A stretch of DNA of 64,000 nt from a virus (IMGVR_UViG_3300027754_000039:1-64000); one strand, 5' to 3'. Shown: positions 12,465 through 50,349, counted from the stretch's first letter. Notes: generated by a model not told the origin, from the sequence alone. Program-made: numbers and translations.

Positions 12465-12683
12465 TTATTTTTCTGTGAAGACTTCTATACATAAAACATT
12501 TTTATCATTAATCATAATCCATGTACCGTCTTGTTGTTTAAATTTAGTAAATTGCCCTTGTCGAATAGATTTAGATTCAATATTATTGAATGTACGTTTT
12601 TCTCCACCTATAAAATGTATAATTTGAGTTACGTACTCTCCAGCTGCTTCAGTAACTGAAGATTTTAAATCTATATTTTCCAT
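12465..12683 (-). CDS. Small hypothetical protein in the glycan locus
   Basis: A 72-residue beta-rich protein. The segment IIHFIGGEKRTFNNIESKSIRQG is reminiscent of small phage proteins with a single barrel. It overlaps the aminotransferase stop region by one base. No function recognised; it is the only gene here, with 24934-25359, lacking an evident enzymatic fold. Confidence 0.6.
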   Translation of the reverse strand: MENIDLKSSVTEAAGEYVTQIIHFIGGEKRTFNNIESKSIRQGQFTKFKQQDGTWIMINDKNVLCIEVFTEK

Positions 12684-13864
12684 TACCAGCCTTGCTTTAT
12701 ACAGTTTACAATATATTGTCTATCTTCTTCAGTCACCCACCAACCTACGGGAATAGCAACTAACTTTCCAATAACAGAATCTAAATTAGGCAATGCTGTT
12801 TTGTAAGGAGTTGTGCAAGTATGTTTATCATTTCTTTCATGAACCTGAGAAACCATAATGCCACATTCTTTCATCTTAGCATAAAAGCCATCTCTGTCAT
12901 CTACTAACATGGAATAAATCCAAAAAGAAGATTCTCTATCTGAATGTCTTGCTAAAGTAGTTAAACCAGGAATATTTTGCAAATTCTCATCATAAAACTT
13001 AGCATTGGATTGATGTGCTTTAATAATTTCATCTGCATGCTTTAAATTAGCTAGACCTACAGTTGCATTAACGTCATTCATATGAAATTTAAAACCCCAT
13101 TCTACAATGTCAGATTCGCAACGAAAGTCTTTTCTATTTCCATCTCGATCAATACCATACCAACGAACCAATTTACCTCGAGCGTGTAACTCATCGTGAG
13201 GCATTAACAACAACCCACCGTCGACCGATGTAATATGTTTAATCGCCTGAAGTGAATACATTACCATATTACCATGATTACCTAAATACTTTCCTTTGTA
13301 TTTAGTACCAAAGGAATGTGCACCGTCTTCTATAACTGCTGGTTTGAAGCCATACATCTTATATGCTTTTTCTTGAATTTGTTTAAGACGATCCAAGTCG
13401 CTAGGATAACCTCCCCAATGCACAATTATAATAGCTTTGGTTTTAGGAGATAGCTTTCTTTCTAAATCATCTAAATCCATATTAAGAGTGGTAGGGTCTA
13501 CATCAACCCATTTAATCTTTAAGCCATTAGCCAAAATAGGAAAGTTAGTAGCTGTGCAAGTTAATGCAGTAGCTAGAACTTCGTCTCCATCTTGAATACC
13601 TGGCCAATAATCATGACTTGCTCCAATGCCATCATAAGTATGAAGTACTTCTTGAGCAGGTTTTAATAAATGCAATGCTAAATGAAGTCCGGATGTACCG
13701 GAGTTCAAAGTTAATACATTTTTAACTGAAAGGAACTTTCTAATTTCTTCTTCAAATTCTTCTACTTTAGGGCCTTGTCCGATAAAGCCACTATTTAGAA
13801 CTTCTGTCACTGCAGGTCCTGCTTCTAGCGACATAAACACTTTAAATAAAGGTATGGTTTTCAT
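12683..13864 (-). CDS. DegT/DnrJ/EryC1/StrS-family aminotransferase
   Basis: A 393-residue PLP-dependent enzyme of the family that aminates keto sugars on nucleotide carriers. The PLP lysine is in YSLQAIKHITSVDGG (K209), the PLP-binding aspartate in IEDGAHSFGT (D180), and the phosphate-binding NSGTSGL at 54-60. Length is normal and all key residues are present. It implies an amino sugar as product, made after one of the SDR enzymes generates a keto intermediate. Overlaps the next gene by four bases. Confidence 0.92.
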   Translation of the reverse strand: MKTIPLFKVFMSLEAGPAVTEVLNSGFIGQGPKVEEFEEEIRKFLSVKNVLTLNSGTSGLHLALHLLKPAQEVLHTYDGIGASHDYWPGIQDGDEVLATALTCTATNFPILANGLKIKWVDVDPTTLNMDLDDLERKLSPKTKAIIIVHWGGYPSDLDRLKQIQEKAYKMYGFKPAVIEDGAHSFGTKYKGKYLGNHGNMVMYSLQAIKHITSVDGGLLLMPHDELHARGKLVRWYGIDRDGNRKDFRCESDIVEWGFKFHMNDVNATVGLANLKHADEIIKAHQSNAKFYDENLQNIPGLTTLARHSDRESSFWIYSMLVDDRDGFYAKMKECGIMVSQVHERNDKHTCTTPYKTALPNLDSVIGKLVAIPVGWWVTEEDRQYIVNCIKQGW

Positions 13865-35043: not shown

Positions 35044-36672
<1,629 letters not shown>

Positions 36673-38022
36673 TTATATATTTTCTAATTCACCCCACCCA
36701 CCTAACGCATCTTCAATACGCTGTTGCGGAACTTCTTCTGTTTCTTTTGTTTCATCCACTACTTCTTTCTTTTCTCTTTTCTTAACTACTTTTGGTTCCA
36801 CAAATGAATTAAAGTCGGCAAAGTTAAAAAATTCTTCATGAACTTCTTTTGCAATATTCATTACATTCTCTCCGCCAAATTTAACATAGAATTGTCTATA
36901 TCTTTCATACACTGCAATTGGATCAGAGGATACAAACATTTCTTCCATTGACTTTAAAATTTGTATTAAGTCATTTGGAATTAATTCTGCTAGAACTTCT
37001 AATGGACAAGTATTAACTAACTTCTCTACCTGATCTGCAGTGTATACATACATATACAAATTATGATAAGTTAATCGAGTAACTGCTTCTGTCGAATAAT
37101 TTTTTACTGTATCCCATTTCAAATACTCAACACCTGGATGATTAATTAATGACGGAACGTGTCCTGTAGTTGGATATACAATATTACTTGAATCTTTAGG
37201 AAAGTATAACATATTAAATACTTGATCTTTCCAATTAGGACTCCATACCATTTGCCCAAAGATAGGATACTGACCTGGAGATGAACTATCTGTTGATACA
37301 GTAATTCTATTATTAGTATGTATATTTAATAATTTCTGTAATTGAGATAAAATGAAAAAGTCAGATACTTTTGAAATGCCTAATAAGTGAACCCAAGTAT
37401 TATATTCTTTATCAAACTCTTTTTCTTTAATCATTAAAGCTAGAATATACATAAAGTCTACAAGACGTCTAGATGAACCTATACACCATCCACCAAACTC
37501 CATATCTCTAACAGTCTTATACCAATGAGAAAACTCTACAGGATTAGAACCTTGAACTACATTTAAAAATTTAGTCTTACCAGTTTGTTTCTTTTCAAAA
37601 TATTTAAAATTATCTAAACTGATATCTAAAGACTCTTGGAACCTTCCTTCATAAGTCACGCGTGGCGGAATATCTATATTACAAGCAATGTCTGAATTGT
37701 TTTCTAACCATTCAAAAATTCTATCACGTAATGCCATATCCCATTTCAATGCACCAGTTGCAATTTGGAATCCACCAGAGTCGCCAAATACTAAAGTATC
37801 TTGCAATCCCCAAGTTTGTCTAATGTTATCTTTCTTATAAAGATGACCTGCTGTCATCAAGAAGTATTTATATCTCCACTCCTCAGGAGTACGGTCATCC
37901 CAAAATCTATAAGGGACACCGGGTGCTACTTCCATATCTTTAGTTAGTGGAGAAGCATAAGCTCCACTCGACAAACTAGGGAAATAGCAGAGTTTTTTTG
38001 GACTATTTGATTTTAATATCAT
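36673..38022 (-). CDS. dpdA: DpdA-like DNA 7-deazaguanine transglycosylase
   Basis: A 449-residue member of the tRNA-guanine transglycosylase superfamily. FGDSGGFQIATG (D81) matches the general-acid aspartate motif, FLNVVQGSN (residues 152-160) the VQG segment, FGGWCIGSSRR (177-186) the substrate loop, and VSTDSSSPG holds the predicted nucleophile D245. It lacks the zinc-binding cysteine cluster of tRNA enzymes, as expected for DpdA proteins, which exchange guanine in DNA for a 7-deazaguanine. FolE, QueE and QueD in this window would supply the base. The acidic C-terminal 50 residues are extra. Confidence 0.85.
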   Translation of the reverse strand: MILKSNSPKKLCYFPSLSSGAYASPLTKDMEVAPGVPYRFWDDRTPEEWRYKYFLMTAGHLYKKDNIRQTWGLQDTLVFGDSGGFQIATGALKWDMALRDRIFEWLENNSDIACNIDIPPRVTYEGRFQESLDISLDNFKYFEKKQTGKTKFLNVVQGSNPVEFSHWYKTVRDMEFGGWCIGSSRRLVDFMYILALMIKEKEFDKEYNTWVHLLGISKVSDFFILSQLQKLLNIHTNNRITVSTDSSSPGQYPIFGQMVWSPNWKDQVFNMLYFPKDSSNIVYPTTGHVPSLINHPGVEYLKWDTVKNYSTEAVTRLTYHNLYMYVYTADQVEKLVNTCPLEVLAELIPNDLIQILKSMEEMFVSSDPIAVYERYRQFYVKFGGENVMNIAKEVHEEFFNFADFNSFVEPKVVKKREKKEVVDETKETEEVPQQRIEDALGGWGELENI

Positions 38023-38041
38023 AACTTTATTTATTTATACT

Positions 38042-38073
38042 TAAATATAGGAAATTCTTATGTGTCTACCAAA
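38042..38073 (-). promoter_or_regulatory. Promoter, TTTGGTAG-N16-TATATTTA
   Basis: TTTG (38073-38070) abuts the stop of the HNH gene ending at 38074. TATATTTA (38049-38042) is 20 bases further, 19 bases before the dpdA start. Confidence 0.8.
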
Positions 38074-38805
38074 TTAATTTGAAAACTTTTTACCTTTATT
38101 CCAAGGAATTCTAGGCACATAAGTTCCATTTTTAATTTTTTCTTCTTTATTTCGTTTTCTAGAAGCCATACATTTTTTAACAATTTCAAGGTCTTTCATA
38201 GAATTTATCTTTTTAGATAAAGAATTTTTAATTTTATTTACAGTTTCCAAACTTGGCGAAATGCCTTTATTCCATGCAGTTCTTCCGGTGGGTCGACCCT
38301 TCATATTTTCATAATGTACTAATCGAGCGGGTGTCATAACTTTTTTCTTTCCTTTAGTAGCTTTAGATAGTTTAGCTTTATATTCATCACTTCTCGGATG
38401 CTTTAATCCTAAATTAATATCTCGTAATTTTTGTTTTGTATCTTCCGACATAATTCGGCCAGTCATTTGTTTAGTTAAATAAGGAATCCATTTATCTTTT
38501 GCTTCTTGATACATTCTACTCGACGGAGTGTAATTACTTAGTTTATATCTTAACGCATTTTTTAAATTACACATACGAAAAAATGCATGAGCTAATTTAT
38601 TAGAATCAATATATACTCGTATTAATAGCCAATGGCATATAAAATGCTCACGAGCTGTTAATAAAACTAAATTTTCTTTTTTATTACTGCCTCCTAAACA
38701 TTTAGGTACAATATGGTGCTTTTCATAATACACACTAGTTCCTTTAATTCGATTTTCAGTTCGAGCTTTTTCTATTATTTGATTGTATATTTTTTCGTAA
38801 TTCAT
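38074..38805 (-). CDS. HNH homing endonuclease with NUMOD3-like repeats
   Basis: A 243-residue mobile nuclease. HHIVPKCLGGSNKKENLVLL followed by REHFICHWLL is the HNH core (residues 29-62). The C-terminal half contains repeated NUMOD3-like DNA-binding motifs (LGLKHPRSDEYKAKLS, GRPTGRTAWNKG and a final IPWNKGKKF). It inserts between dpdA and a glycosyltransferase gene, so it can mobilise this modification region. Confidence 0.9.
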   Translation of the reverse strand: MNYEKIYNQIIEKARTENRIKGTSVYYEKHHIVPKCLGGSNKKENLVLLTAREHFICHWLLIRVYIDSNKLAHAFFRMCNLKNALRYKLSNYTPSSRMYQEAKDKWIPYLTKQMTGRIMSEDTKQKLRDINLGLKHPRSDEYKAKLSKATKGKKKVMTPARLVHYENMKGRPTGRTAWNKGISPSLETVNKIKNSLSKKINSMKDLEIVKKCMASRKRNKEEKIKNGTYVPRIPWNKGKKFSN

Positions 38806-38914
38806 AATACCTAGTCATTATTGAATCTTTATTTTTTTGATAGTATTCATCATTCCATCGTTTTCTAGCAGTCTTTTGCTCCTCAACGGTTTGATATTTT
38901 TTCTTTCTACCCAT
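38756..38914 (-). CDS. Small basic ORF overlapping the HNH gene
   Basis: A 52-residue frame starting MGRKKKYQTVEEQKTARKRW and overlapping the HNH gene start by 50 bases in another frame. KKYxTxEEQKxARKRWNxEYY is a style seen in small proteins preceding homing endonucleases. It may be real, or a decayed N-terminal part of the mobile element. Support is moderate. Confidence 0.4.
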   Translation of the reverse strand: MGRKKKYQTVEEQKTARKRWNDEYYQKNKDSIMTRYYELRKNIQSNNRKSSN

Positions 38915-38945
38915 TCAATAATAATTATATACTTATGAAAAAAAC

Positions 38946-39950
38946 TTATGAAATAGTACCAAATATTTCTTTAATAATTGGCTCTGAATCGTAAAAGGTT
39001 TCAAATAAATGTGTCTGCTGTTCTTTAATTAAAGGAATATAAAAATCATAATTTTCAATTAGATGTTTTATCTTACCTGTTAAGTCTGGAGCGAATTTAC
39101 TGTAATTGAAAATATTTGCCGTCCATTCAGCTGGATATCTAAAATCTAAAGGAACTAAATCTTTTAACCCTTCAATATCAGGTACCAAAGGTATAGTGCC
39201 TAGCAAAAAACATTCATAAATTTCTTTTCCAATATTTGGAGAGTCGTAAGGAAGAAATGCAACTTTAGCTTTAGCAATTTGATTTAATAATTGATCTCGA
39301 GTTAATGGAAGACGTTCTTGAGCAAATATAACTTTTATATCTTTGTACACTCGTATAAAGTCGTATACAATCTGTTCCTGTAGCGTTGAATACTTATTCC
39401 ATGGAAAGATAACCATGCTTTGTTTAAAGTAACTATCCTTATATAAAGACATATCCAATATTAAATACTCTAATGGAAAAGGCATTACATTTAATCTTTC
39501 AGGAAATACAAATTTAGAAACGTATATACGAAACTGCTCTTTATGAAATTCAGATATAAAAAATGATTTATCTAAACAACGAAAAGATGCCCTTTCATGT
39601 ACCTTTCTCCAATTACGATCATTTAATGGACGATACTCTGAATCTAAATTTAAGTAACACCCACGTGACCAAAAGCCAATCATCTTAACCGGCACTTGAT
39701 AATTTTCTGACCAGTGTCTAACATACACAGTCATTGACGACCAAGCATTAGGAAACACAAATAAATCGTCAGGAGTAATTACTCCATTCTGAAAATGTTG
39801 CTTAATTAATGAAGGGTCCATAATTTCTACAACTTCAAACTCATTAGGCTTTGTAGACTCTACATACCCATGAAGAATAGAAGCTAAATGACTTTCCCAA
39901 GAATTCTCGTCAGTAATAAGTGGGTCTATTACTACATAAACTCTTTTCAT
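38946..39950 (-). CDS. Putative GT-B glycosyltransferase in the modification region
   Basis: A 334-residue protein with a GT-B-like layout. The C-terminal domain has FLPYDSPNIGKEIYECFLLGTIPLVP, which parallels the donor-binding loop of GT4-type enzymes. The N-terminal domain starts KRVYVVIDPLITDENSWESHLAS. It is separated from the main glycan locus and lies between the dpdA region and the ClpP and polymerase genes, so it may modify DNA or a replication-time target. Confidence 0.6.
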   Translation of the reverse strand: MKRVYVVIDPLITDENSWESHLASILHGYVESTKPNEFEVVEIMDPSLIKQHFQNGVITPDDLFVFPNAWSSMTVYVRHWSENYQVPVKMIGFWSRGCYLNLDSEYRPLNDRNWRKVHERASFRCLDKSFFISEFHKEQFRIYVSKFVFPERLNVMPFPLEYLILDMSLYKDSYFKQSMVIFPWNKYSTLQEQIVYDFIRVYKDIKVIFAQERLPLTRDQLLNQIAKAKVAFLPYDSPNIGKEIYECFLLGTIPLVPDIEGLKDLVPLDFRYPAEWTANIFNYSKFAPDLTGKIKHLIENYDFYIPLIKEQQTHLFETFYDSEPIIKEIFGTIS

Positions 39951-40303
39951 AGCTTTTCTACTCTAGCTCCATTTTCCATATCTTCCCAACATTCAACCCA
40001 ATCACATTCAAATCTTTCTAGCAATTCTCTAGATAACATTTCACAAGACTTAGGCCCAAACTCTAAAGTTCTAGATTGATTATCTGAATATTGATTATGT
40101 AAATAATTTAATACATCCCGTTTAAACATAATAAACTCTACATCTCGATCATCGTGATTAACCATTTTAGCTAAAGTAAAATGAAACATATGTCTATGTC
40201 TATCTGCTAAAAATGCAACTTCTGGAAACAACTCTGCTGCTTTTGGGAAGTTGTGCATTCCGTCTACTGCTAGCTTAACTAATACTACCGTCTTTGTTAT
40301 CAT
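39947..40303 (-). CDS. Conserved phage protein, HRHxFH/NHDDRDVEF family, possibly T-fold
   Basis: A 118-residue protein with striking conserved-looking motifs: HRHMFHF (residues 36-42), NHDDRDVEF (49-57), FGPKSCEML (82-90) and VECWEDMENGARV (103-115). The order, a His-rich strand, then a helix with SCE, then a final VxxxExxxxGAxV strand, parallels QueD/6-pyruvoyl-tetrahydropterin synthase T-folds. That relation is my inference. It overlaps the gene upstream by 29 bases. Function unknown. Confidence 0.7.
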   Translation of the reverse strand: MITKTVVLVKLAVDGMHNFPKAAELFPEVAFLADRHRHMFHFTLAKMVNHDDRDVEFIMFKRDVLNYLHNQYSDNQSRTLEFGPKSCEMLSRELLERFECDWVECWEDMENGARVEKL

Positions 40304-40436
40304 GTTTTTCTTTTATTATTTTTAAATTTTCTTCTGCTATCTTAGCAATAATTTCTTTAATTTCAGACATTGAATGCTCATAATCTTTTTCCAACTCAAA
40401 ATTAATTTCGTCTGTTTTAACTTTTAATTTTATCAT
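40275..40436 (-). CDS. Small hypothetical protein (53 aa)
   Basis: A 53-residue helical, charged protein starting MIKLKVKTDEINFELEKDYEH. It starts with an ATGA overlap on the clpP stop and ends inside the start of the 39947-40303 gene, so both junctions are consistent with translation. Function unknown. Confidence 0.65.
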   Translation of the reverse strand: MIKLKVKTDEINFELEKDYEHSMSEIKEIIAKIAEENLKIIKEKHDNKDGSIS

Positions 40437-41017
40437 ACTATTTCATCTATTAGTTTATACTGCAAAGCTTCTTCTGGAGACATATACCAATCAAATTTAA
40501 CTTTTTTACTATCGTCTAATTGCTTTCGCTTCAATGAAGTTTTGCTAATTAAATAATCGTCATACACTTTCATTATTCGTTTAGTCTCTTGAAGATTTTC
40601 ATTCAAGGTAGAAAGCTTTTCATATGGCAATTGATCTAGGCATTCGTGATACATAAAAGTCGATAACTTATGACCAAATCGTTGATGACCTGAAACTAAA
40701 ATTAATAAAGCCATTGACATTGCCGATCCATAACAATATGTATGCACAGGAGTTTTAGATTTTTCTATAACACCAATTAAAGCAAATCCATCATATACCG
40801 AACCTCCCATGCTATTAACAATTAATTTGATAGGAGTTCTTGTATACTCAACTACATTATCTTCATTCTCGTCGTCAATTTCATTAATGTCACAAATGTC
40901 TTGCATTATTTCACTAACCGTTAACTCATCAACCTCTCCACTTAATATAAGTGTTCGTGATAAATTTTCTTTATCTAATCTAGATGTCTTACTTTTTTTC
41001 TGTGCTATTTTATTCAT
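40433..41017 (-). CDS. clpP: ClpP-family serine protease
   Basis: A 194-residue ClpP fold peptidase. The catalytic triad is S98 in CYGSAMSMALLI, H124 in FMYHECLD and D176 in FDWYMSPEEA. SMGGSVYDGFALIGVI is the oligomer and substrate-channel segment. The N-terminal 20 residues are a basic extension (KIAQKKSKTSRLDKEN). It may work with host ClpX-type ATPases, or process a phage protein such as a head component; it is not the T4 gp21-type protease. It lies just after the DNA polymerase gene. Confidence 0.9.
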   Translation of the reverse strand: MNKIAQKKSKTSRLDKENLSRTLILSGEVDELTVSEIMQDICDINEIDDENEDNVVEYTRTPIKLIVNSMGGSVYDGFALIGVIEKSKTPVHTYCYGSAMSMALLILVSGHQRFGHKLSTFMYHECLDQLPYEKLSTLNENLQETKRIMKVYDDYLISKTSLKRKQLDDSKKVKFDWYMSPEEALQYKLIDEIV

Positions 41018-41027
41018 AACTTAAATT

Positions 41028-43595
41028 TTAACTAAATGAAAAGAAATCTGCCATATTATCATTCTTAGGTATGCCTCCCCAATTCAAAGCTTGATAAAAA
41101 TCACCTAACTTATTTTCCAAAGAAGCAATAAATATCCTTTCATAATCAATATATTGAGTTATAAATTTAATAATTTCTTTTGGATCTTCAAAGCCCTTTA
41201 CAGCTAAAGTATCTAATCCTAATGGATTTTGTTTAAGATAAGTCCATTTAATTTTTTCTCCATCCAATATAGGTTGTGAAGCCGTAATATTATAATATAT
41301 CATTAAGTCATTATAATTCAATGCCGACTTAGCGTGTATTGGAGTTCCTTTAACTCTGTTACCAAATACTTGACCTTTAATCTTTTTAGTTTTGTATTTG
41401 GATAATTCTTTAATACCTGTCGGAAACATAATGTCAAACATAGGTTTAGTTTTCATATCTTCTCGAAATGCTAACACCTTATCATCAATTTTTTTCTTTT
41501 CAGAAATATTTAAAATGTCAATTAAGATACCTGACATAAACTCTCTAAATGCTTTTGGAAAATTACTTCTTACAACATCCATACCTTTAACATCTAACTT
41601 CCACTCTTTAGCTCCGTTAGTCATTTGTGATATTAATACTCCTTTCTCAGAAATAATTTTTTGTGCATAACGTTTTTTTGCAATCCACAAACCAGATTCA
41701 GATACATACTCTTGTTTAATATTTAAAAAGTGTTTATCTGAATTTAAAAAGTGCTTACAAAATTCATCCCAAGATGCATTAATATAATTTTCAACTACTT
41801 GAGAAGTTTTATAAGTAACGTCAATCTTCTCTTGCTTGGTCATCTCTTTACCCATCTTAGTTTCCATTAAGTCAATAATTGGCTTAGCTGAAAAGTAATT
41901 GGAATCTGTATCTACATAAATTACATACTCTTTATCAACTCCTGTCTGTTTAGTAAACCATTCATTGCCTTTCATCATGGCGTGACGAATAACTTGCTGA
42001 CCTGTTAATGTAATTGACTCTGCATTATCTAAATCATGAAATCTAAATCCAGGAGCTCCTAAAGCTCCATATAAAGAGTTATTTACAATCTTCATAGTGT
42101 GCTGTCTGGAGTCAAAGAATTTAGACATATCAGCATTACCCTCCTTACCATACTTCTTTGCTAAGCCACGATATTCTTCACGCTCGCCCATCCAAGTTTC
42201 TAATATAGAAGGAATCAATCCACTTTTGGAATAATCATATACAACACCAATAGAAGATACTGTAAATTTATTATCTACTAACCATTGTCTAAATTCTACA
42301 ATTGGAATCATTACGTGCTTAGCACCTGATTTAATTTTAGCATTGGCATTGGAAAAAGAGTCAGTCCAAAAATCATTTTTAACTGCATCCCAATTTTCTA
42401 CTCTACCTACTTTGGTCTCTGGAGATATATTTAACGTTCTAATAATAGAAGGATATAGTGAAGCCATATCCTCATCAAACACCCATTCATATAAACCTGG
42501 TATTGGATCTTTTACATAAGCTCCAGCAAAATCATTAGAATGTGGATCTGTCGATTCTGCAGAGTGATCTCTTAACTTTCTATTAGGAGCAATAATGCCT
42601 AAACGTTTCATATACGTTACACAGGCTCCATCTAAATATCTAGTTGTAAAATAAACATCTTCATAAGGCACATGACCTTTATGACAGATACCTCGAGCCA
42701 AAGATAGGAATTTAAGTTTTTCATCTAACTCTAAAACTAATATAACGTCATTGATATTATATGCAATAAACTTTTCAGGATCTGTTTTATATAAATGATC
42801 CAAAGTTCCTTCATATTCAATTTTACCTTTACCTAATTCTTTTTTAGAAATAGAATCTAACGAATAAGACACCTCTTCAGAGTATGTAAATAATTTATAC
42901 AATGCCATGTAATCTAAACAACTAACACCCATAATTCTATAACGATTACGATGTTGAAGATAAATTACTTCATTGATTGGAGATAGCGAATCGGCATATT
43001 CCTTACCTACTACCTTTGTCATACGATTATATAAATAAGGAATATCAAAGAAATCAATATTCCATCCTGTTATAATGGTCGGTCTTATTTCTTGATAGTG
43101 AGCTAGAAATCTAGAAATCAATTCGTGTTCAGTTTGAACTACTTCTAAAATTAAATTAGCATCTGTATATGGCTTTAAAGTTCTTTTAGCATCGACAATA
43201 ATAGCTACTGACTGATTGCCTACTCTATCATGAAAGGCAATTGAAGTCATTGGTTGCCAAGCATCTTCTGCTGACGAAAAGCCTCCTTCGGTATTTACTT
43301 CAATATCTATAAATAATTCTCTATGTCCTATTGAAGGCTCATCTGTTTGAAAATATAAATCAATTAAAGTTCTAGTCTCTGGATTAATATCTGATTCATA
43401 TATATGACCTTTTTGAACATCCATTTCATCCCAATCAGTTACTCTATCAACTTTCGATCCATCTAAAGCTGCATGACGACCATGAGAATTTTTCTTATAA
43501 GCATATTTTTTATATGGGAATTTAAGATGACCATTTTTGTCATCCCAGACGTGCATAATATTTTTATGCTTTTGATATGCTATATTTTGGTACAT
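41028..43595 (-). CDS. 43: DNA polymerase, family B (gp43-like)
   Basis: An 855-residue replicative polymerase with 3'-5' exonuclease. Exonuclease motifs are FIDIEVNTEGG, GWNIDFFDIPYLYNRM and YNINDVILVLEL. Polymerase motif A is FDEDMASLYPSIIR, motif B KIVNNSLYGALGAPG and motif C YVDTDSNYF, all intact. It matches T4-type polymerases in order and size. It should act with the clamp, loader, helicase and SSB encoded in this window. Confidence 0.97.
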   Translation of the reverse strand: MYQNIAYQKHKNIMHVWDDKNGHLKFPYKKYAYKKNSHGRHAALDGSKVDRVTDWDEMDVQKGHIYESDINPETRTLIDLYFQTDEPSIGHRELFIDIEVNTEGGFSSAEDAWQPMTSIAFHDRVGNQSVAIIVDAKRTLKPYTDANLILEVVQTEHELISRFLAHYQEIRPTIITGWNIDFFDIPYLYNRMTKVVGKEYADSLSPINEVIYLQHRNRYRIMGVSCLDYMALYKLFTYSEEVSYSLDSISKKELGKGKIEYEGTLDHLYKTDPEKFIAYNINDVILVLELDEKLKFLSLARGICHKGHVPYEDVYFTTRYLDGACVTYMKRLGIIAPNRKLRDHSAESTDPHSNDFAGAYVKDPIPGLYEWVFDEDMASLYPSIIRTLNISPETKVGRVENWDAVKNDFWTDSFSNANAKIKSGAKHVMIPIVEFRQWLVDNKFTVSSIGVVYDYSKSGLIPSILETWMGEREEYRGLAKKYGKEGNADMSKFFDSRQHTMKIVNNSLYGALGAPGFRFHDLDNAESITLTGQQVIRHAMMKGNEWFTKQTGVDKEYVIYVDTDSNYFSAKPIIDLMETKMGKEMTKQEKIDVTYKTSQVVENYINASWDEFCKHFLNSDKHFLNIKQEYVSESGLWIAKKRYAQKIISEKGVLISQMTNGAKEWKLDVKGMDVVRSNFPKAFREFMSGILIDILNISEKKKIDDKVLAFREDMKTKPMFDIMFPTGIKELSKYKTKKIKGQVFGNRVKGTPIHAKSALNYNDLMIYYNITASQPILDGEKIKWTYLKQNPLGLDTLAVKGFEDPKEIIKFITQYIDYERIFIASLENKLGDFYQALNWGGIPKNDNMADFFSFS

Positions 43596-43596
43596 C

Positions 43597-44619
43597 TTAT
43601 TTTTCTGATTTAATTATATCAATCATTGTTTGTGCATTGTTATTCCACTTTGCTGTCCACTCAAAAGGAACAGTTAAGTCACAACTGTCAAATAGAAAAT
43701 CAATATCTTTAACTCTGTCATATACATTGACAGACGGTACCATTTCAGGGCAACATGCTCTATTTGGAACTAATATATTACAATTAAAGAAAATAGCTTC
43801 TTGTATTGTATATCCAAAAGTTTCTTGATAACAGGTTGATAAATACCAACGAGCCTTTGCCATTAAAGTAAAATATTCTTTTTTAGTTAAGTTAAATTTA
43901 AACTCGATATTTCTAGGCAGATTAGTTCCACAATCTTTTACAGGACCTGAAGACGTAACTATTATTTTTTTATTTGTGCTATTGGCATATTGAATTAACT
44001 CGCCTAAGCCTTTTTCATTACACCACCTATGAGGCCAAATAACAAAATCTTCTTTTACAACATATCCAATCTCTTCATGAAACTCTTGCATATAATTCAA
44101 GTCCCAAATTAAACCTGTCGTATGCACTGTAGCTGTATTCAATCCAAAATATTCACATACATTATATTTGTGATCGTCGCTACCTACAAAAATGCCATCA
44201 CAAATTTGATGATATCCTAATTCAGAAGCGTCTGCCCAATGACCTAATTTTTGTACAAAGTCTGTGCTATCAGCTCTACCAGCATAATTAATTCCATATA
44301 CCTTAACATCAATATCTTGAAGCTCTGCCATGTATTTAATCATTTCAATACCTGGGAAGAATATATCTCCTATTAGAAATGCATCTCCATTATTAACTTT
44401 GCCTTCATTGAAAAGGTCTGCAATCATTTGCAACTGTGCTGCTTTGAATTTGCAAGTATTAACAATATCTAAAAATTGACCACGCTTGATTTCTTTGTCA
44501 ATTTCTACCTTCGGATACAATGAAATGTCTACTTTAGGGTAAATAGCTGCATTCATCATTTGGGTATAGCGAGCTGGTAACTCTTCTATAGGAATGTAAA
44601 TTATTTTATTTTTTGTCAT
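43597..44619 (-). CDS. GT-B glycosyltransferase near DNA polymerase
   Basis: A 340-residue GT-B-like protein. Near residues 265-285 TCYQETFGYTIQEAIFFNCNILVP has the EX7E pair of GT4-type donor domains. The N-terminal part resembles an acceptor-binding Rossmann domain with FLIGDIFFPGIEMIKY. It follows the polymerase by two bases. It is outside the main glycan locus, like the transferases at 38946 and 44651. Confidence 0.75.
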   Translation of the reverse strand: MTKNKIIYIPIEELPARYTQMMNAAIYPKVDISLYPKVEIDKEIKRGQFLDIVNTCKFKAAQLQMIADLFNEGKVNNGDAFLIGDIFFPGIEMIKYMAELQDIDVKVYGINYAGRADSTDFVQKLGHWADASELGYHQICDGIFVGSDDHKYNVCEYFGLNTATVHTTGLIWDLNYMQEFHEEIGYVVKEDFVIWPHRWCNEKGLGELIQYANSTNKKIIVTSSGPVKDCGTNLPRNIEFKFNLTKKEYFTLMAKARWYLSTCYQETFGYTIQEAIFFNCNILVPNRACCPEMVPSVNVYDRVKDIDFLFDSCDLTVPFEWTAKWNNNAQTMIDIIKSEK

Positions 44620-44650
44620 AACTTTTTATTTTAATAAAATATATGATTTT

Positions 44651-46051
44651 CTATTCAAAAAAGCTAGAGATAGTTTTGTTTTCTTTTGGTAATTCTTTTT
44701 TAATTAAATTACCATTATCATCTGGAACTCCTAAGTAAGTAAATTGCTTTTCATGAAGTATTTGATACCAAGATTGATTGGTGTATATAGCTTCTATATC
44801 TGAAGTAAGATATATTGTTCCTTTTGTATTTTCCGTTCTAAAATAATCTTCTAAAGACATCCAAAACCCTTTATGCTCTTTTAAATAAGTATAAAGACGA
44901 TTGCGTGGTTCTTGTTTTGCTTGCACTCCACCAAAAGCATCTTCAACTAAATTTAACAAAGCTGTTTCATAATCTACTTTATATTGAGTAAATTCCAACT
45001 CTACTTTAGTCTCATCTACTTTCCAGGTATTATAAGCTGACCATATTATATCCGATACTTCTTTGGAATCTGCAACTATTAAATTGCTCATGCCTTGAAA
45101 ATTATAATGCCAATCATAATTGCGTAAAACAACTGTCGGCATAAATCGAAGAGCCTCTAAAACTGCAATACCAAAGGATTCATTTTTATAAGGCATAAAT
45201 GCTACTTTGGCAGATTGAATTATTTTTGCTTTCTCTTCTCCTACAACATCACATTTGATTTCATAATTGGTATGACCTATAGCAGCAAAGTCAGCTTCAA
45301 ACTTTTTAACGTGTGCAGAACGAGTTAGCACTTTTGCTTTTAACTCAACTCCATGCTTTGCTTTTATATCGGCCAGTACCTTAATATACATACCCGGATT
45401 CTTTCTATCCTCGTGTCTTCCTATATAGAGTACCCCTTCCTTCTCAAGATTGTATACGACGTTAGAATCGGTTAATGGATAAGGCTGAATATATAAATTA
45501 GGATTGGAGTAAGGCAATTTAGATAGTAGCTTTGCTTTATTTTGTTTAGTTTGTATCAATGTTGTAATTGGAAAATACATCATTTGCTCAATTAAATTAT
45601 AATAACAATCTTTAAATACTCCAGCTCCTAATTCTGGATTTATAGATTGACATTCATGAGCGTATGAACTAACTCTCATATGTTTATAAAGCTCTAATTG
45701 ATAACATACAAAAGCAGACTCTGTGTCATTGCAAATAACTAAATCATACTTATGATTAGCTAACGCTTTTACTATTGCAGTTCGAAAATTAATTGACTTT
45801 TCAAAATTAAAGCTGTCTGCAAATTGAAATAAATTGGAATGCTTACCATAAGACAATCGCTCTTGCTTGTCTGGATAGTAAACACTAATTCCAGATTCTT
45901 TTAGAAAATTTTCTTCAGGTTCTCCGTCACATATAACATCTATAAAATGCCCATGCTCTAATAAAGTTTCTACTACCCCCTTCATGAAAATTCCGTGTCC
46001 TGAACTAGGCCTAAAATTCATTCTGTTAATGATGAATGCTACTCTTTTCAT
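44651..46051 (-). CDS. GT-B glycosyltransferase, family 4-like
   Basis: A 466-residue GT-B enzyme. The donor site has YKNESFGIAVLEALRFMPTVVL with the EX7E glutamates, preceded by EGVLYIGRHEDRKNPGMYIKVL. The N-terminus RVAFIINRMNFRPSSGHGIFMKGVV is the acceptor-side start. A C-terminal section of about 90 residues (after 375) is extra to the fold. Confidence 0.8.
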   Translation of the reverse strand: MKRVAFIINRMNFRPSSGHGIFMKGVVETLLEHGHFIDVICDGEPEENFLKESGISVYYPDKQERLSYGKHSNLFQFADSFNFEKSINFRTAIVKALANHKYDLVICNDTESAFVCYQLELYKHMRVSSYAHECQSINPELGAGVFKDCYYNLIEQMMYFPITTLIQTKQNKAKLLSKLPYSNPNLYIQPYPLTDSNVVYNLEKEGVLYIGRHEDRKNPGMYIKVLADIKAKHGVELKAKVLTRSAHVKKFEADFAAIGHTNYEIKCDVVGEEKAKIIQSAKVAFMPYKNESFGIAVLEALRFMPTVVLRNYDWHYNFQGMSNLIVADSKEVSDIIWSAYNTWKVDETKVELEFTQYKVDYETALLNLVEDAFGGVQAKQEPRNRLYTYLKEHKGFWMSLEDYFRTENTKGTIYLTSDIEAIYTNQSWYQILHEKQFTYLGVPDDNGNLIKKELPKENKTISSFFE

Positions 46052-46074
46052 AATATATTTTTTAAAAATAATAT

Positions 46075-46084
46075 CCGTGCCGGC
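46075..46084. repeat. Inverted repeat CCGTGCCGGC, left arm
   Basis: This G+C-rich ten-base arm lies between the gene at 46091 and the GT gene. Its exact reverse complement is at 46401-46410, so the two arms flank a small membrane gene in an otherwise AT-rich genome. Confidence 0.7.
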
Positions 46085-46090
46085 GGGTTA

Positions 46091-46378
46091 TTATCCTTTA
46101 ATTAATTGTTTAGTTGCTGTTAATTTATCGATACGAGAATCGATATACGAGTGATTCTCATCTACTCGTCTATGTACATTTTCTAATTCCTTTTCTATCC
46201 TTTGATAAATTTCAGAATTGCCATTATTTATGAATTGGTGAATTTGATTTACTTCATCTTGTAAACCTCTTAATTGTTTTTGCTGTTTTAATACCTTCAC
46301 AATACTCAAAACAATAACTGACGCAAAAACGACAGCTATTACAGAAAGCACTCCAAAAGTAAATGATACTATTTCCAT
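46091..46378 (-). CDS. Small membrane-anchored coiled-coil protein
   Basis: A protein with an N-terminal membrane helix (IVSFTFGVLSVIAVVFASVIVLSIV) followed by a charged coiled coil of about 60 residues (QKQLRGLQDEVNQIHQF and onward). I prefer MEIVSF at 46378, which begins after the upstream stop; an in-frame ATG at 46417 would add 13 residues and overlap. It could be a spanin-like or membrane-tethered protein. It is flanked by a ten-base inverted repeat. Confidence 0.65.
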   Translation of the reverse strand: MEIVSFTFGVLSVIAVVFASVIVLSIVKVLKQQKQLRGLQDEVNQIHQFINNGNSEIYQRIEKELENVHRRVDENHSYIDSRIDKLTATKQLIKG

Positions 46379-46394
46379 ATTGCTTATTTTGTTT

Positions 46395-46766
46395 TTATTT
46401 GCCGGCACGGCTATCATTTACGCTACCAGAGGTTGCAAGTACTTTTAAAGCTACAATGTCAGGGACTTGAAATCCTAACAATCGCAAATCAGCTAAATCC
46501 ATACGAGTTAATCCTTTGGCCGTAATTTTTTTTCTTCTATTTGATTCGTGTTTAAATTTTAATAACTCAGCACACTTTTCATATTCTTCTAAATTGCTAT
46601 AATATATTATCAAGCAATCATAGATAAATTGTCTATCTGTATGTTTAGGTACATCATACTTACATACTAACCTAAATACATTATCAATCGTTTGCTTCGC
46701 TGACGGAAGTTCTTCTGCCATCACTAAAAACAAATTTAATCGATCTTGACGTTCGTCCGGAGTCAT
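46395..46766 (-). CDS. Hypothetical protein with EEYEKCAELL motif
   Basis: A 123-residue basic protein starting [19 protein letters not shown]. Its middle has SNLEEYEKCAELLKFK, similar to the helical motif in the 6934-7179 protein. The C-terminal half is a helix-rich section (ADLRLLGFQVPDIVALKVL). It shares one base with folE and its 3' end contains the right arm of the inverted repeat. Function unknown. Confidence 0.65.
   Translation of the reverse strand: MTPDERQDRLNLFLVMAEELPSAKQTIDNVFRLVCKYDVPKHTDRQFIYDCLIIYYSNLEEYEKCAELLKFKHESNRRKKITAKGLTRMDLADLRLLGFQVPDIVALKVLATSGSVNDSRAGK
46401..46410. repeat. Inverted repeat CCGTGCCGGC, right arm
   Basis: The exact reverse complement of 46075-46084. 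On the coding strand it encodes the terminal RAG of the 46395-46766 protein. Confidence 0.7.
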
Positions 46767-47398
46767 TAATCTAACTTATCTACGAAACGATAAAACTCAT
46801 TTCTAGCTGCTGGGTCAATTAAAAATGCTCCTGACATCTTTGAAGTCATCATTGTCGAGTCGTGACGTACACCTCTCACACAAGCACACATATGATTCGC
46901 TGCTACCATTACTGCTACACCTTTATTACCTTCACACACTGTATTGATATACTCGTGAATTTGCATAGTTAAATTTTCTTGAACCTGAGGTCTGCGAGCA
47001 AAATACTCTACAATACGATTTAGTTTAGACAATCCAATAACCTTACCATCTTCAGACGGAATATAAGCTACGTGTGCATATCCAATAAAAGGTAAATGAT
47101 GATGAGAGCAAAAAGACTTTACATCAATATTGCCTTGAAATACAATTCCATCATACTTATCTAAATTGTCAAATGCTGTAATTTTCGGAGCATCTTCATA
47201 ACAACCTTGAGCTAAATCATTAACAAAGGCTTTTGCAACTCGCATTGGAGTGTCTGAAGAGTTAGGATCGTTTTCCCAATCAATACCTAACGCAGTCATG
47301 TAAGCTCCATAATGTGAAGCTGCAGCTATAATCATAGCCTGCTTCTCTTCTTTAGTTCTAGGAATAGAAGAGTTAGCATATTTTAATAATTCTTTCAT
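46766..47398 (-). CDS. folE: GTP cyclohydrolase I
   Basis: A 210-residue enzyme converting GTP to dihydroneopterin triphosphate, the first step to 7-deazaguanines. The zinc ligands are C97 and H100 in FCSHHHLPF and C171 in NHMCACVRG, and [10 protein letters not shown] plus [22 protein letters not shown] are hallmark segments. Length matches FolE. Its promoter places TATATTTA four bases before the ATG, predicting a leaderless transcript. Confidence 0.95.
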
Positions 47399-47402
47399 AT
47401 TG

Positions 47403-47434
47403 TAAATATAAGGAGTTCTAATGAATAAACCAAA
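47403..47434 (-). promoter_or_regulatory. Promoter of folE, TTTGGTTT-N16-TATATTTA
   Basis: TTTG (47434-47431) abuts the TAA of groES ending at 47435. TATATTTA (47410-47403) lies 20 bases on, only four bases before the folE ATG. Confidence 0.8.
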
Positions 47435-47767
47435 TTATAATGGTAATTCAATTTGAGTATTTTCTTTAAATACTGCTAGCAAATCAGACTCTCTGAAAAG
47501 AATATATTTTTCTTTGTTAAGTTTAATTTCTTGACCACCATATGCTGGTATCATTACTTCATCACCTTCTTTAACTGACATTGGAATTGAAACTCCATTC
47601 TGAGTATACAATCCAGCTCCTACTGAAATTACTTTTCCCATTTTAACGTCATCTGCAGTTGCAGTTTCTGGAATAATAATTCCTGATGCTGTTTTCTTTT
47701 CTTCTTTAGTTTTATGTTCTTTAACTAAAACTCTGTCGCCTAAAGGCTTAATTACTTTATTTTCCAT
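47435..47767 (-). CDS. groES: GroES-type co-chaperonin
   Basis: A 110-residue co-chaperonin. IKPLGDRVLVKE at the start, the mobile-loop region SGIIIPETATADDV and YILFRESDLLAVF near the end match GroES. Bacterial GroES is about 97 residues; this has a 13-residue C-terminal tail (KENTQIELPL). It would cap the phage GroEL, which lies 11 kb away rather than in a groESL operon. Confidence 0.93.
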   Translation of the reverse strand: MENKVIKPLGDRVLVKEHKTKEEKKTASGIIIPETATADDVKMGKVISVGAGLYTQNGVSIPMSVKEGDEVMIPAYGGQEIKLNKEKYILFRESDLLAVFKENTQIELPL

Positions 47768-47768
47768 A

Positions 47769-47957
47769 TTAATCGATTGTATATTTGTCAGCTCCGTCTT
47801 CTGATTTAGCTACTATGCTTCCGTTAGCTAACACTGTTAATGTTAAATTGTATTCTTGTTTTAAAAAATCTTTAATTGCAACTATATCCATATGGTTTGT
47901 TTTCCATAATAAATGTAAAACGTTCATTGCGTCAAATGCTGTTGGTGTCTGTATCAT
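47769..47957 (-). CDS. Small hypothetical protein
   Basis: A 62-residue protein with an N-terminal helix (FDAMNVLHLLWKTNHMDIVAIKDFL) and two C-terminal strands. It lies one base from both the groES and queE genes, so it is translated with them. Function unknown. Confidence 0.6.
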   Translation of the reverse strand: MIQTPTAFDAMNVLHLLWKTNHMDIVAIKDFLKQEYNLTLTVLANGSIVAKSEDGADKYTID

Positions 47958-47958
47958 A

Positions 47959-48723
47959 TTATACTCCTCGTTTATCGTTATAAGCTACTATGTGAGCTCT
48001 TCCTGTGAAATTATAGCCTCTTTTAATACACTCTTCCATTACATAAGGATAGTTAGGTTGTAATTTATCTAGCGTATCTCCTGCTGGCATAACCCATACT
48101 TTATTTTTAGGTATGTCATGAGTTGCAATAAACTCTTCTATTTCATTCCACACTTCAGGATCGTTTCTATCTACAACTGGTTTGAAATGATAATCTAAAT
48201 GATACTCCATCATCTTTTTCATAACATCATGATTCATTCTAAATTTGTTATGTTGTGTGATAAGCTTTTCATTTACATCTACTCCTAATGGAGTTTCAGT
48301 TCCTAATTTTGGAATTGAGTTTTTAAACTTAGGTGATAGTGATATTAAATCTATTTTATAATTAGTTTCAATAAAATGGCTTCCTTCAGTTTCAATAGTA
48401 ACATACATTCCTCTCATACGTTTAGCTATATTAACTAATTCATCAACTAACTCAGGATGCATAGTTGGAGAACCACCTGATATCATTAAATGATTGATCT
48501 GAGGATTGGTTTCAAATAGTTCTTGAATAGCATTAAGAGTCCAAGTACCTTTCTCTGGATGAATACTTGTATACCAAGAATCACACCATCCTCCTTCTCC
48601 AAAGTAACATCTGTGAGTACAGCCTGTTGTTCTTACTAGAAAATGAGGACGACCTGCTCGTGAACCTTCAGTTTGAACGCAAGTATATGCTTCAATGATA
48701 GGTTGTATTTTATTATAGTCCAT
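47959..48723 (-). CDS. queE: 7-carboxy-7-deazaguanine synthase, radical SAM
   Basis: A 254-residue radical SAM enzyme converting carboxytetrahydropterin to 7-carboxy-7-deazaguanine. LVRTTGCTHRCYF with C35 and C39, then GGWCDSW with C47, give a CX3CX7C cluster motif in place of the common CX3CX2C. MISGGSPTMHPELV is the SAM-binding GGxP segment and VTIETEGSHF follows. The VQTEGSRAGRP start is typical of QueE. Confidence 0.9.
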   Translation of the reverse strand: MDYNKIQPIIEAYTCVQTEGSRAGRPHFLVRTTGCTHRCYFGEGGWCDSWYTSIHPEKGTWTLNAIQELFETNPQINHLMISGGSPTMHPELVDELVNIAKRMRGMYVTIETEGSHFIETNYKIDLISLSPKFKNSIPKLGTETPLGVDVNEKLITQHNKFRMNHDVMKKMMEYHLDYHFKPVVDRNDPEVWNEIEEFIATHDIPKNKVWVMPAGDTLDKLQPNYPYVMEECIKRGYNFTGRAHIVAYNDKRGV

Positions 48724-48725
48724 AT

Positions 48726-49064
48726 TTATAACTTATTTTTAATAATATTAATTTTAACATCTCCATTAATAATTTGATCTTGCACCTTAGATGCTTCTTT
48801 AAAGTTTTTACAGTCCGTTACATCCACATTGATTGTTATTCCTAACTCTTTTAATTGCTCAGGCGTTAATGGTTTAATTGGTTCAGGTTTTACAAACTTT
48901 GGATAAGTTCTTTTAAGTGGTTCTTTTTTAAAGAAGTAACCAGCTATGTCGACATAAGGTAATAATTCTTTATCACCTTCAATAGTTGTAGTTCCATTTT
49001 CGGCTTTTAACATTACTATTTTATATCCCATTTTATGAGACAACCATTTAATTATTTTTATCAT
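48726..49064 (-). CDS. Hypothetical protein
   Basis: A 112-residue protein with a basic N-terminus (MIKIIKWLSHKMGYK), a proline-rich middle (PKFVKPEPIKPLTPEQL) and a strand-rich end. The linker-like middle suggests two small parts. It lies between queE and queD but shows no pterin or SAM motif. Function unknown. Confidence 0.6.
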   Translation of the reverse strand: MIKIIKWLSHKMGYKIVMLKAENGTTTIEGDKELLPYVDIAGYFFKKEPLKRTYPKFVKPEPIKPLTPEQLKELGITINVDVTDCKNFKEASKVQDQIINGDVKINIIKNKL

Positions 49065-49095
49065 ATATGTAATTTATTTTAATGTCTCCGAATGT

Positions 49096-49108
49096 GGTTG
49101 TTACAACC
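49096..49108 (-). other. Small hairpin downstream of queD
   Basis: GGTTG and CAACC form a five-base stem with a three-base loop in the gap after the queD stop. No T-run follows directly, so I do not call it a terminator. Confidence 0.3.
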
Positions 49109-49114
49109 CAATAA

Positions 49115-49591
49115 TTATTCTTCATAGATGCTAGAGTTTTTATCATTTTCAAAACATTCTACTTTAATCACTTTACATCTACCAGCGTCTGTCTTAGATA
49201 ACACTTCATTAAAGTGATCATAAACTAATTTAGCATTGCTTTCAGCTCCCATTTTATCTAGTAAATGAACTTTAGCTAAACCCATTTGCCCTAATTGTTC
49301 AAATACATCAGCATAAGGATCGTCTTTTTGAATTAGTAAAGTATGATCCCACATATGATCCATCCATGACTTAAGACCATTGCCTACTGGTTTGTCTTTA
49401 AACCCTGAATAGTCTACAATCCAATTCATATCGTCTAACTGTTTATTAACGTCAGGTTCATTGGAGGCGAACCATACTTTAAATTTTAACGCATATCCAT
49501 GTAATAATTGACAGTGTGAATGTTGAGCTTTCCACTGTCTAATTGCCACGCTATAGTTATCAAAAGTTTTAGTACTTAAATACTGTGCCAT
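49115..49591 (-). CDS. queD: 6-carboxytetrahydropterin synthase
   Basis: A 158-residue T-fold enzyme making 6-carboxy-tetrahydropterin for the 7-deazaguanine pathway. HCQLLHGYALKFKV holds the catalytic cysteine (C27) and zinc histidine (H31); the usual second histidine of HGH is Y33. WIVDYSGFK, MDHMWDHTLLI and the C-terminal VIKVECFEND complete the QueD pattern. It is slightly longer than bacterial QueD. Confidence 0.88.
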   Translation of the reverse strand: MAQYLSTKTFDNYSVAIRQWKAQHSHCQLLHGYALKFKVWFASNEPDVNKQLDDMNWIVDYSGFKDKPVGNGLKSWMDHMWDHTLLIQKDDPYADVFEQLGQMGLAKVHLLDKMGAESNAKLVYDHFNEVLSKTDAGRCKVIKVECFENDKNSSIYEE

Positions 49592-49608: not shown

Positions 49609-50349
49609 TTAATTATTTTTTAATATAGACAATTCTTTGTAAAATACCAAATCTTTTTTAATTAAATTTTCAATTGAAATAAAATCAAATCCAGCATCTT
49701 TAAAAGTCTTTCCTATATATTGTCGAATATGTTGATAATATAAAGTATCATTTATCATTGCCTGAAAATGTGCTTTTCTTATTACCTTATGATTATGTTT
49801 ACATTTAGTTACTAAACTAGTATAGTCTATACCTATATAGTCGCCCATTATGTCAGAAGCAGAAAAATTACCAAATGGGGTTAAATATATTCCTTTACAT
49901 GCTATTCCAACATGATAGTTACTCCTAGCAAAATCAATTTGACTTAAAATTTCGCATTGGTTAGTATATAAATTTTTACATGCTATCATATTTTTATATG
50001 AAGACTTATCAGATTTTTTTCTTTTCTTTAATTTATCAATTAATTGAAGCCTATCAGATCCTACTATCCCTGCAAAGGTATTGCCCCCTTCCCCGCCTTC
50101 GGCTATATTATAAAACTCAGCCGAGTTTACTGCGTCGTATAATTTAATATATCGTTTTTCTGCTGAGCGAACTTCATCTTTACTATTAAAGTATTCAAGT
50201 ACTACTCTTGTGAAATTTTCACATCCATGTTTTTTAATAGCTCGCCGTAAAAGTTTACCTGAACCTAAATACTTATCCGTGTCTTTACCTTCATACTTAC
50301 CAATATACTTTTTATTATTAATAAGACAGGTTGTTATATATACAAACAT
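49609..50349 (-). CDS. GIY-YIG homing endonuclease
   Basis: A 246-residue mobile nuclease. FVYITTCLINNKKYIGK is the GIY-YIG start and YLGSGKLLRRAIKKHG the next conserved block, with EKRYIKLYDAV after it. NIAEGGEGG is typical of phage members. The C-terminal half is a DNA-binding section including LYTNQCEILSQIDFARSNYH. It lies just upstream of queD and has its own ATATTTAT element. Confidence 0.9.
   Translation of the reverse strand: MFVYITTCLINNKKYIGKYEGKDTDKYLGSGKLLRRAIKKHGCENFTRVVLEYFNSKDEVRSAEKRYIKLYDAVNSAEFYNIAEGGEGGNTFAGIVGSDRLQLIDKLKKRKKSDKSSYKNMIACKNLYTNQCEILSQIDFARSNYHVGIACKGIYLTPFGNFSASDIMGDYIGIDYTSLVTKCKHNHKVIRKAHFQAMINDTLYYQHIRQYIGKTFKDAGFDFISIENLIKKDLVFYKELSILKNN

Follow-up and report, generated by a model that had tools for sequence, protein, structure and literature searches.

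Phages with DpdA, such as 9g, CAjan, and nt-1, make a modified base with FolE, QueD, and QueE and carry a TGT-like DpdA (Hutinet et al. 2019, PMC6884629). The locus described here resembles these systems in having all four components and differs from them in that no QueC, Gat-QueC, or QueF was found, while a protein of the family phrog_17812 and a glycosyltransferase (GT) are added. Cellulophaga phage phiST is similar in that it has a QueD-QueE-FolE set and a phrog_17812 homolog (CGPG_00067), its record contains no QueC, and its QueE is 56% identical to ours. In contrast, its DpdA (CGPG_00065) is short, with no relationship to ours detectable by hhalign, and phiST has no member of the GT family. 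PA5oct, Phosso, ACP17, X1, and BUCT-ZZ01 are unrelated phages that combine phrog_17812 and the GT family with FolE/QueD/QueE, a long DpdA, and no clear QueC; in ACP17, X1, and ZZ01 this DpdA is of the nt-1-like DpdA2 type. The locus also recalls the T4-type glucosyl-hydroxymethylcytosine system in having phage glycosyltransferases near replication and DNA modification genes, but here no dCMP hydroxymethylase was found and the base pathway is that of 7-deazaguanine.

Genomic setting and pathway enzymes

The window, the 64,000-nucleotide stretch of DNA that we analyzed, covers the first 64 kb of a T4-like virus contig (IMGVR_UViG_3300027754_000039) that is 181,588 bp long, carries T4-like replication genes, and has a GC content of 31.5%. 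The contig's DNA polymerase is closest to those of Microcystis phage Mel-JY01 and cyanophages, and its QueE and FolE are closest to those of Flavobacterium and Cellulophaga phages, with 55 to 58% identity. Shine-Dalgarno-like motifs are found upstream of just 16 of the 184 genes of the contig, comparable to the 0 to 10% use in the flavobacterial phages sampled, and the host is probably a Bacteroidota bacterium. An attempt to assign the host through a DegT aminotransferase (12683-13864) failed, as its closest match in genome contigs, at 60% identity, was a Lokiarchaeota MAG contig, which may itself be viral or misbinned.

The genes for the three pathway enzymes lie on the minus strand: FolE, GTP cyclohydrolase I, at 46766-47398 (PF01227, E=6e-50; NCBIfam FolE, E=1e-50); QueE at 47959-48723 (phrog_2076, E=3.5e-51; 56% identity to the phiST and immuto proteins); and QueD, 6-carboxytetrahydropterin synthase, at 49115-49591 (PF01242, E=1.4e-10; phrog_2389, E=1.4e-32), in which Cys27 and the Asp-His dyad are conserved. 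A sequence-only reading of the window had named these enzymes, and the Pfam, PHROG, and, for FolE, NCBIfam profile matches make the predicted identities unambiguous. The module was stable in a synteny comparison with 56 related loci, and QueE was present in 16 of 30 related IMG/VR contigs. Some relatives have QueE and QueD swapped for distant versions, with QueE identities of either 51 to 61% or 23 to 26%; these phages keep the pathway, and QueC was not found in them. Two distant QueE lineages replace each other in related phages (window 47959-48723 versus loci L032, L035, L061, and L063), and one of them is distinguished by a long insertion separating the second cysteine from the third. Other genes are interspersed here: phage-encoded GroEL and GroES (35044-36654 and 47435-47767), which also occur together in Flavobacterium phage immuto, are interleaved with the modification genes, and HNH-type and GIY-YIG-type homing endonuclease-like genes (38074-38805 and 49609-50349) lie within or beside them.

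The gene at 36673-38022 (minus strand) encodes a 449-amino-acid DpdA-like DNA guanine transglycosylase of the long type. On its own, this protein falls below threshold against the Pfam TGT profile (E=0.07), but the profile matches 8 of 14 members of its family, with a best E of 4.8e-8. In hhalign comparisons, the family aligned with the transglycosylases of phages PA5oct, Phosso, and Vibrio 2.275 (99.9%, E=4e-35) and with the nt-1 type, DpdA2 (89.7%, E=1.8e-6), and gave no significant match to the short phage DpdAs of phiST, immuto, and D479. Sequence searches against the PDB returned nothing meaningful. The motifs GDSGGFQ and TDSSSPGQ contain invariant aspartates, as expected of a transglycosylase. 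The family matches, the hhalign results, and these motifs uphold the earlier naming of this gene as DpdA, although it is a divergent one. In gene content, the locus therefore has the FolE, QueD, QueE, and DpdA of phage 7-deazaguanine DNA modification.

A PF06508 search for QueC found nothing in the whole contig, which is classed as linear and may be missing an end, or in 30 related IMG/VR contigs; the same search detected QueC in 12 of 14 control genomes, including a Bacteroides control. Searching the contig with local HMMs for QueC and for QueF likewise gave no hit, with QueE, QueD, and FolE controls scoring 1e-39 or better. The best QueF match was FolE itself at E=0.018, so no preQ1 branch was found, and with no QueC or Gat-QueC in the full contig, neither was a preQ0 or archaeosine branch. 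The sequence-only reading had reported that the window has no QueC and had concluded that, if none exists elsewhere, the DNA should carry 7-carboxy-7-deazaguanine (CDG; dCDG in DNA), though host QueC could convert the base to preQ0. The first part, a QueC-less 7-deazaguanine pathway leading to insertion into DNA, is well supported and extends beyond the window to the contig and its relatives. The step to dCDG is weak, since it overlooks a protein linked to QueC-less pathways and a glycosyltransferase tied to the module.

The phrog_17812 protein

Between DpdA and FolE, at 39947-40303 on the minus strand, is a gene for a 118-amino-acid protein (phrog_17812, E=1e-26) whose PHROG annotation is function unknown; this gene and the linked glycosyltransferases were missing from an otherwise correct list of enzymes in the sequence-only reading. 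By tblastn, we found phrog_17812 in 27 phage records, and its neighbors in the phage regions inspected include FolE, QueD, QueE, or a DpdA-like gene. When whole records were searched, all 12 named phages chosen for phrog_17812 were without a clear QueC. Of two weak QueC matches among them, that in X1 reads as an NAD-synthetase-like PP-loop protein and that in D479 is partial, covering 69 positions. Conversely, phrog_17812 is absent from the seven searched phages that are named and have QueC-family matches (four chosen for QueC and three others). Among 79 further IMG/VR loci with phrog_17812, DpdA was found within about 6 kb in 66, the GT in 58, and QueC in none, and among 80 loci picked by QueC, neither phrog_17812 nor the GT was found, although these loci are not independent and their counts are not probabilities. 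In a clustering of neighboring genes across 12 phage groups, FolE, phrog_17812, and QueE occurred in all 12, the GT in 11, DpdA in 10, and QueD in 9; PolB, in 10 of the groups, was the sole other gene equally widespread. From this distribution, the phrog_17812 protein looks like a QueC substitute, and we propose it as such.

Two other explanations rival this one. dCDG is a phage base reported in the literature, and the contig has no QueC, QueF, or Gat-QueC, so DpdA might insert CDG directly, with phrog_17812 acting as a QueD helper or being a structural paralog. We consider this improbable, because phrog_17812 is found repeatedly with QueC-less pathways whose DpdAs are of several types, even alongside QueD, a pattern that points to an additional step. 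Many bacteria carry QueC, and a host enzyme might instead turn phage-boosted CDG into preQ0, which DpdA would insert as dPreQ0. The Bacteroides control carries QueC, the low Shine-Dalgarno use of the phage is as in Bacteroidota, and the DpdA of 9g, expressed alone in E. coli, produced dPreQ0 from host preQ0 (Hutinet et al. 2019, PMC6884629). However, this scenario leaves unexplained why phrog_17812 is found in QueC-less relatives yet never in QueC loci, and we give it little credence.

Sequence searches of phrog_17812 against the PDB returned nothing meaningful, and Pfam gave scattered chance matches among its members; only a fold search resolved the protein. The best Foldseek matches of the AlphaFold2 model (pLDDT 92) in the PDB, with E about 5e-5 and TM about 0.7, are P. 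aeruginosa PTPS and E. coli QueD, and the C-terminal part of the family aligns with phage QueD over 46 columns (hhalign 83%, E=9e-6). The predicted model thus has a T-fold. Residues H17, L32, H36, H38, F40, V48, R53, E56, S86, C87, E88, and E107 are invariant in 17 lineages; they include an SCE stretch at positions 86 to 88. The roles of the catalytic Cys, the zinc triad, and the Asp-His dyad in QueD are established. The three histidines of phrog_17812 fit the zinc triad, so that the predicted T-fold and the His pattern are common to this protein and QueD/6-pyruvoyltetrahydropterin synthase. In contrast, the catalytic Cys and the Asp-His dyad, both kept in the aligned phage QueDs, are not conserved in phrog_17812, which has a Leu at the Cys site, four residues before the HGH motif. 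With a QueD-like fold that lacks these residues, phrog_17812 is probably a paralog of QueD that carries out a different reaction.

In Faecalibacterium phage Roos, phrog_17812 occurs together with a DpdA-like gene and a YhhQ-like transporter (locus L095, 6019-7887), and no QueE or QueD was found in the record of this phage. This combination suggests an imported precursor, and the substrate of phrog_17812 may not be CDG. In phages Bakedbeans and MA9V-3, phrog_17812 forms the C-terminal part of longer open reading frames (L090, 5221-6372, and L091, 6461-7342), which are possible fusions.

Glycosyltransferases linked to the long DpdA

Three glycosyltransferase genes lie among the modification genes, all on the minus strand. 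The first, GTa (38946-39950), lies between phrog_17812 and DpdA and is a module-linked member of a GT4-like family (blastp E=7e-29 to Phosso gp224 and E=2e-25 to the GT of locus L039); a GT occupies the same slot in relatives. The second, GTb (43597-44619), has a predicted GT-B fold (AlphaFold2 pLDDT 86), a profile match to WbaZ (E=3.5e-6), and Foldseek matches to BshA/MshA (E about 1e-11). The third, GTc (44651-46051), is a GT4 glycosyltransferase (PF00534, E=5e-9) with 33% identity over 349 amino acids to ZZ01_35, and its homolog adjoins DpdA2 in BUCT-ZZ01. GTa and GTb belong to a single GT-B, GT4-like family that we found in only 20 of 50,697 phage records, the same 20 being recovered with two different queries.

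Sixteen of these 20 records are phages with phrog_17812. The other four are PhiXhv-12, Ep032, PhiXhv-15, and PhiXhv-16, of which the first two were examined; both have QueE, QueD, and a QueC-family match in a 521-amino-acid frame, which in PhiXhv-12 is annotated as a glutamine amidotransferase and lies two genes before the GT. As judged from gene content in the phrog_17812 phages, PhiXhv-12, and Ep032, the family is confined to phage lineages with a 7-deazaguanine pathway. The PhiXhv-12 region (L107, 2904-9704) encodes this QueC-family "amidotransferase," a BshB-like deacetylase, the GT, acyltransferase-like proteins, and a Gfo/Idh-like protein, and is possibly a further DNA hypermodification cassette.

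Among the phrog_17812 loci, presence of the GT follows the type of DpdA. It was found in 50 of 51 loci with a long DpdA (the remaining contig is truncated immediately beyond phrog_17812) and in none of 15 loci with a short DpdA; these loci, too, are not independent, and the counts are not probabilities. By lineage, the GT and the long DpdA are linked in the clade of the window, in a second clade of marine origin, in the PA5oct-like phages, Phosso, ACP17, X1, and ZZ01, and in a set of DpdA2 contigs, so the linkage is tight across unrelated phages. In the two cases seen in which a long DpdA occurs with QueC (L253 and Vibrio 2.275), there was no GT of the GTa/GTb family. The linkage does not always mean adjacency, since in 20 of 58 IMG/VR loci phrog_17812 and the GT lie more than 200 bp apart or on opposite strands.

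These observations bear on a further explanation, in which phrog_17812 is a CDG decarboxylase (DpdL), the DNA carries unsugared 7-deazaguanine (dDG), and the GTs serve another purpose. Phages reportedly contain dDG as well as dCDG, and DpdL is said to have been predicted as the decarboxylase; moreover, the phiST module of FolE, QueD, QueE, short DpdA, and phrog_17812 has neither a QueC nor a GTa/GTb-family member in the record. But the GT tracks the DpdA type within the module and its family is restricted to 7-deazaguanine phage lineages, and on these grounds we regard unsugared dDG as rather unlikely in this phage.

The fold of the GT is a generic GT-B (TM about 0.6). No T4 DNA glucosyltransferase is among its best 50 fold matches, and pterin glucosyltransferases are present. 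The window also contains a large sugar cluster (8878-29365) encoding a UDP-sugar dehydrogenase, epimerases, the DegT aminotransferase, a cupin isomerase, and several GTs; it may supply a sugar donor or decorate the virion, and through it the GTs could serve other purposes. It is thus conceivable that the substrate of the GT is a pterin, some other small molecule, or a surface glycan, and that pterins derived from FolE are its sole connection to the module. The tetrahydrobiopterin glucosyltransferases 5ze7 and 9v0l among the fold matches, the resemblance of phrog_17812 to pterin synthases, and the sugar cluster all fit this idea, which is nevertheless unlikely, as the GT follows the type of DpdA and not FolE, and short-DpdA modules with FolE are without it. 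Glucosylated hydroxymethylcytosine was rejected as an explanation for the GTs: no dCMP hydroxymethylase or hydroxymethylcytosine route was found, and the single thymidylate synthase-family protein is of the ThyA type, with the ThyA motif PFN.

A candidate route to a glycosylated 7-deazaguanine

The reading we prefer, and hold to be slightly more probable than otherwise, is that the module leaves the known pathway before preQ0, with phrog_17812 processing CDG, the long DpdA inserting the product, and the GT4-like GTs adding a sugar. FolE, QueD, and QueE would convert GTP to CDG. The phrog_17812 protein, as a small zinc T-fold enzyme, would then take the place of QueC and convert CDG or a close product to the base to be used, our leading guess being decarboxylation to 7-deazaguanine, the DpdL reaction. 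The long-type DpdA would exchange guanines in phage DNA for this base, and the GTs tied to it would attach a sugar, whether after insertion, on the base in DNA, or beforehand, on the free base. From the gene content and predicted folds we infer the substrates, the order of the reactions, the sugar, and protection of the DNA from host nucleases.

The presence of phrog_17812 and of a linked glycosyltransferase suggests that CDG is processed further, and a base derived from CDG through phrog_17812, perhaps 7-deazaguanine and probably glycosylated, would fit the locus better than plain dCDG. Decarboxylation and glycosylation sit uneasily together, however, because 7-deazaguanine offers an O-glycosyltransferase no obvious group to act on. 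If decarboxylation leaves no obvious attachment point, then either phrog_17812 has another activity or the GT targets a different site of the base. A limited literature search returned no mention of a glycosylated deazaguanine.

The analysis offers a candidate gene for the step after CDG in QueC-less phages, a point that the sequence-only reading left open, and a glycosyltransferase family linked to guanine modification in DNA. In its broader form, the proposal is that phages of at least six lineages glycosylate a 7-deazaguanine base in their DNA, with phrog_17812 yielding a base that accepts sugar, the long DpdA inserting it, and a dedicated GT4-like family adding the sugar; we think this quite possible, if short of probable. 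The parts are present in cultured phages, including PA5oct and its relatives, ACP17, and phiST, so the proposal is directly testable. If it is true, the sugar-bearing bases of phage DNA would include guanine in addition to cytosine and thymine, which would matter for restriction, for CRISPR evasion, and for the sequencing of such phages.
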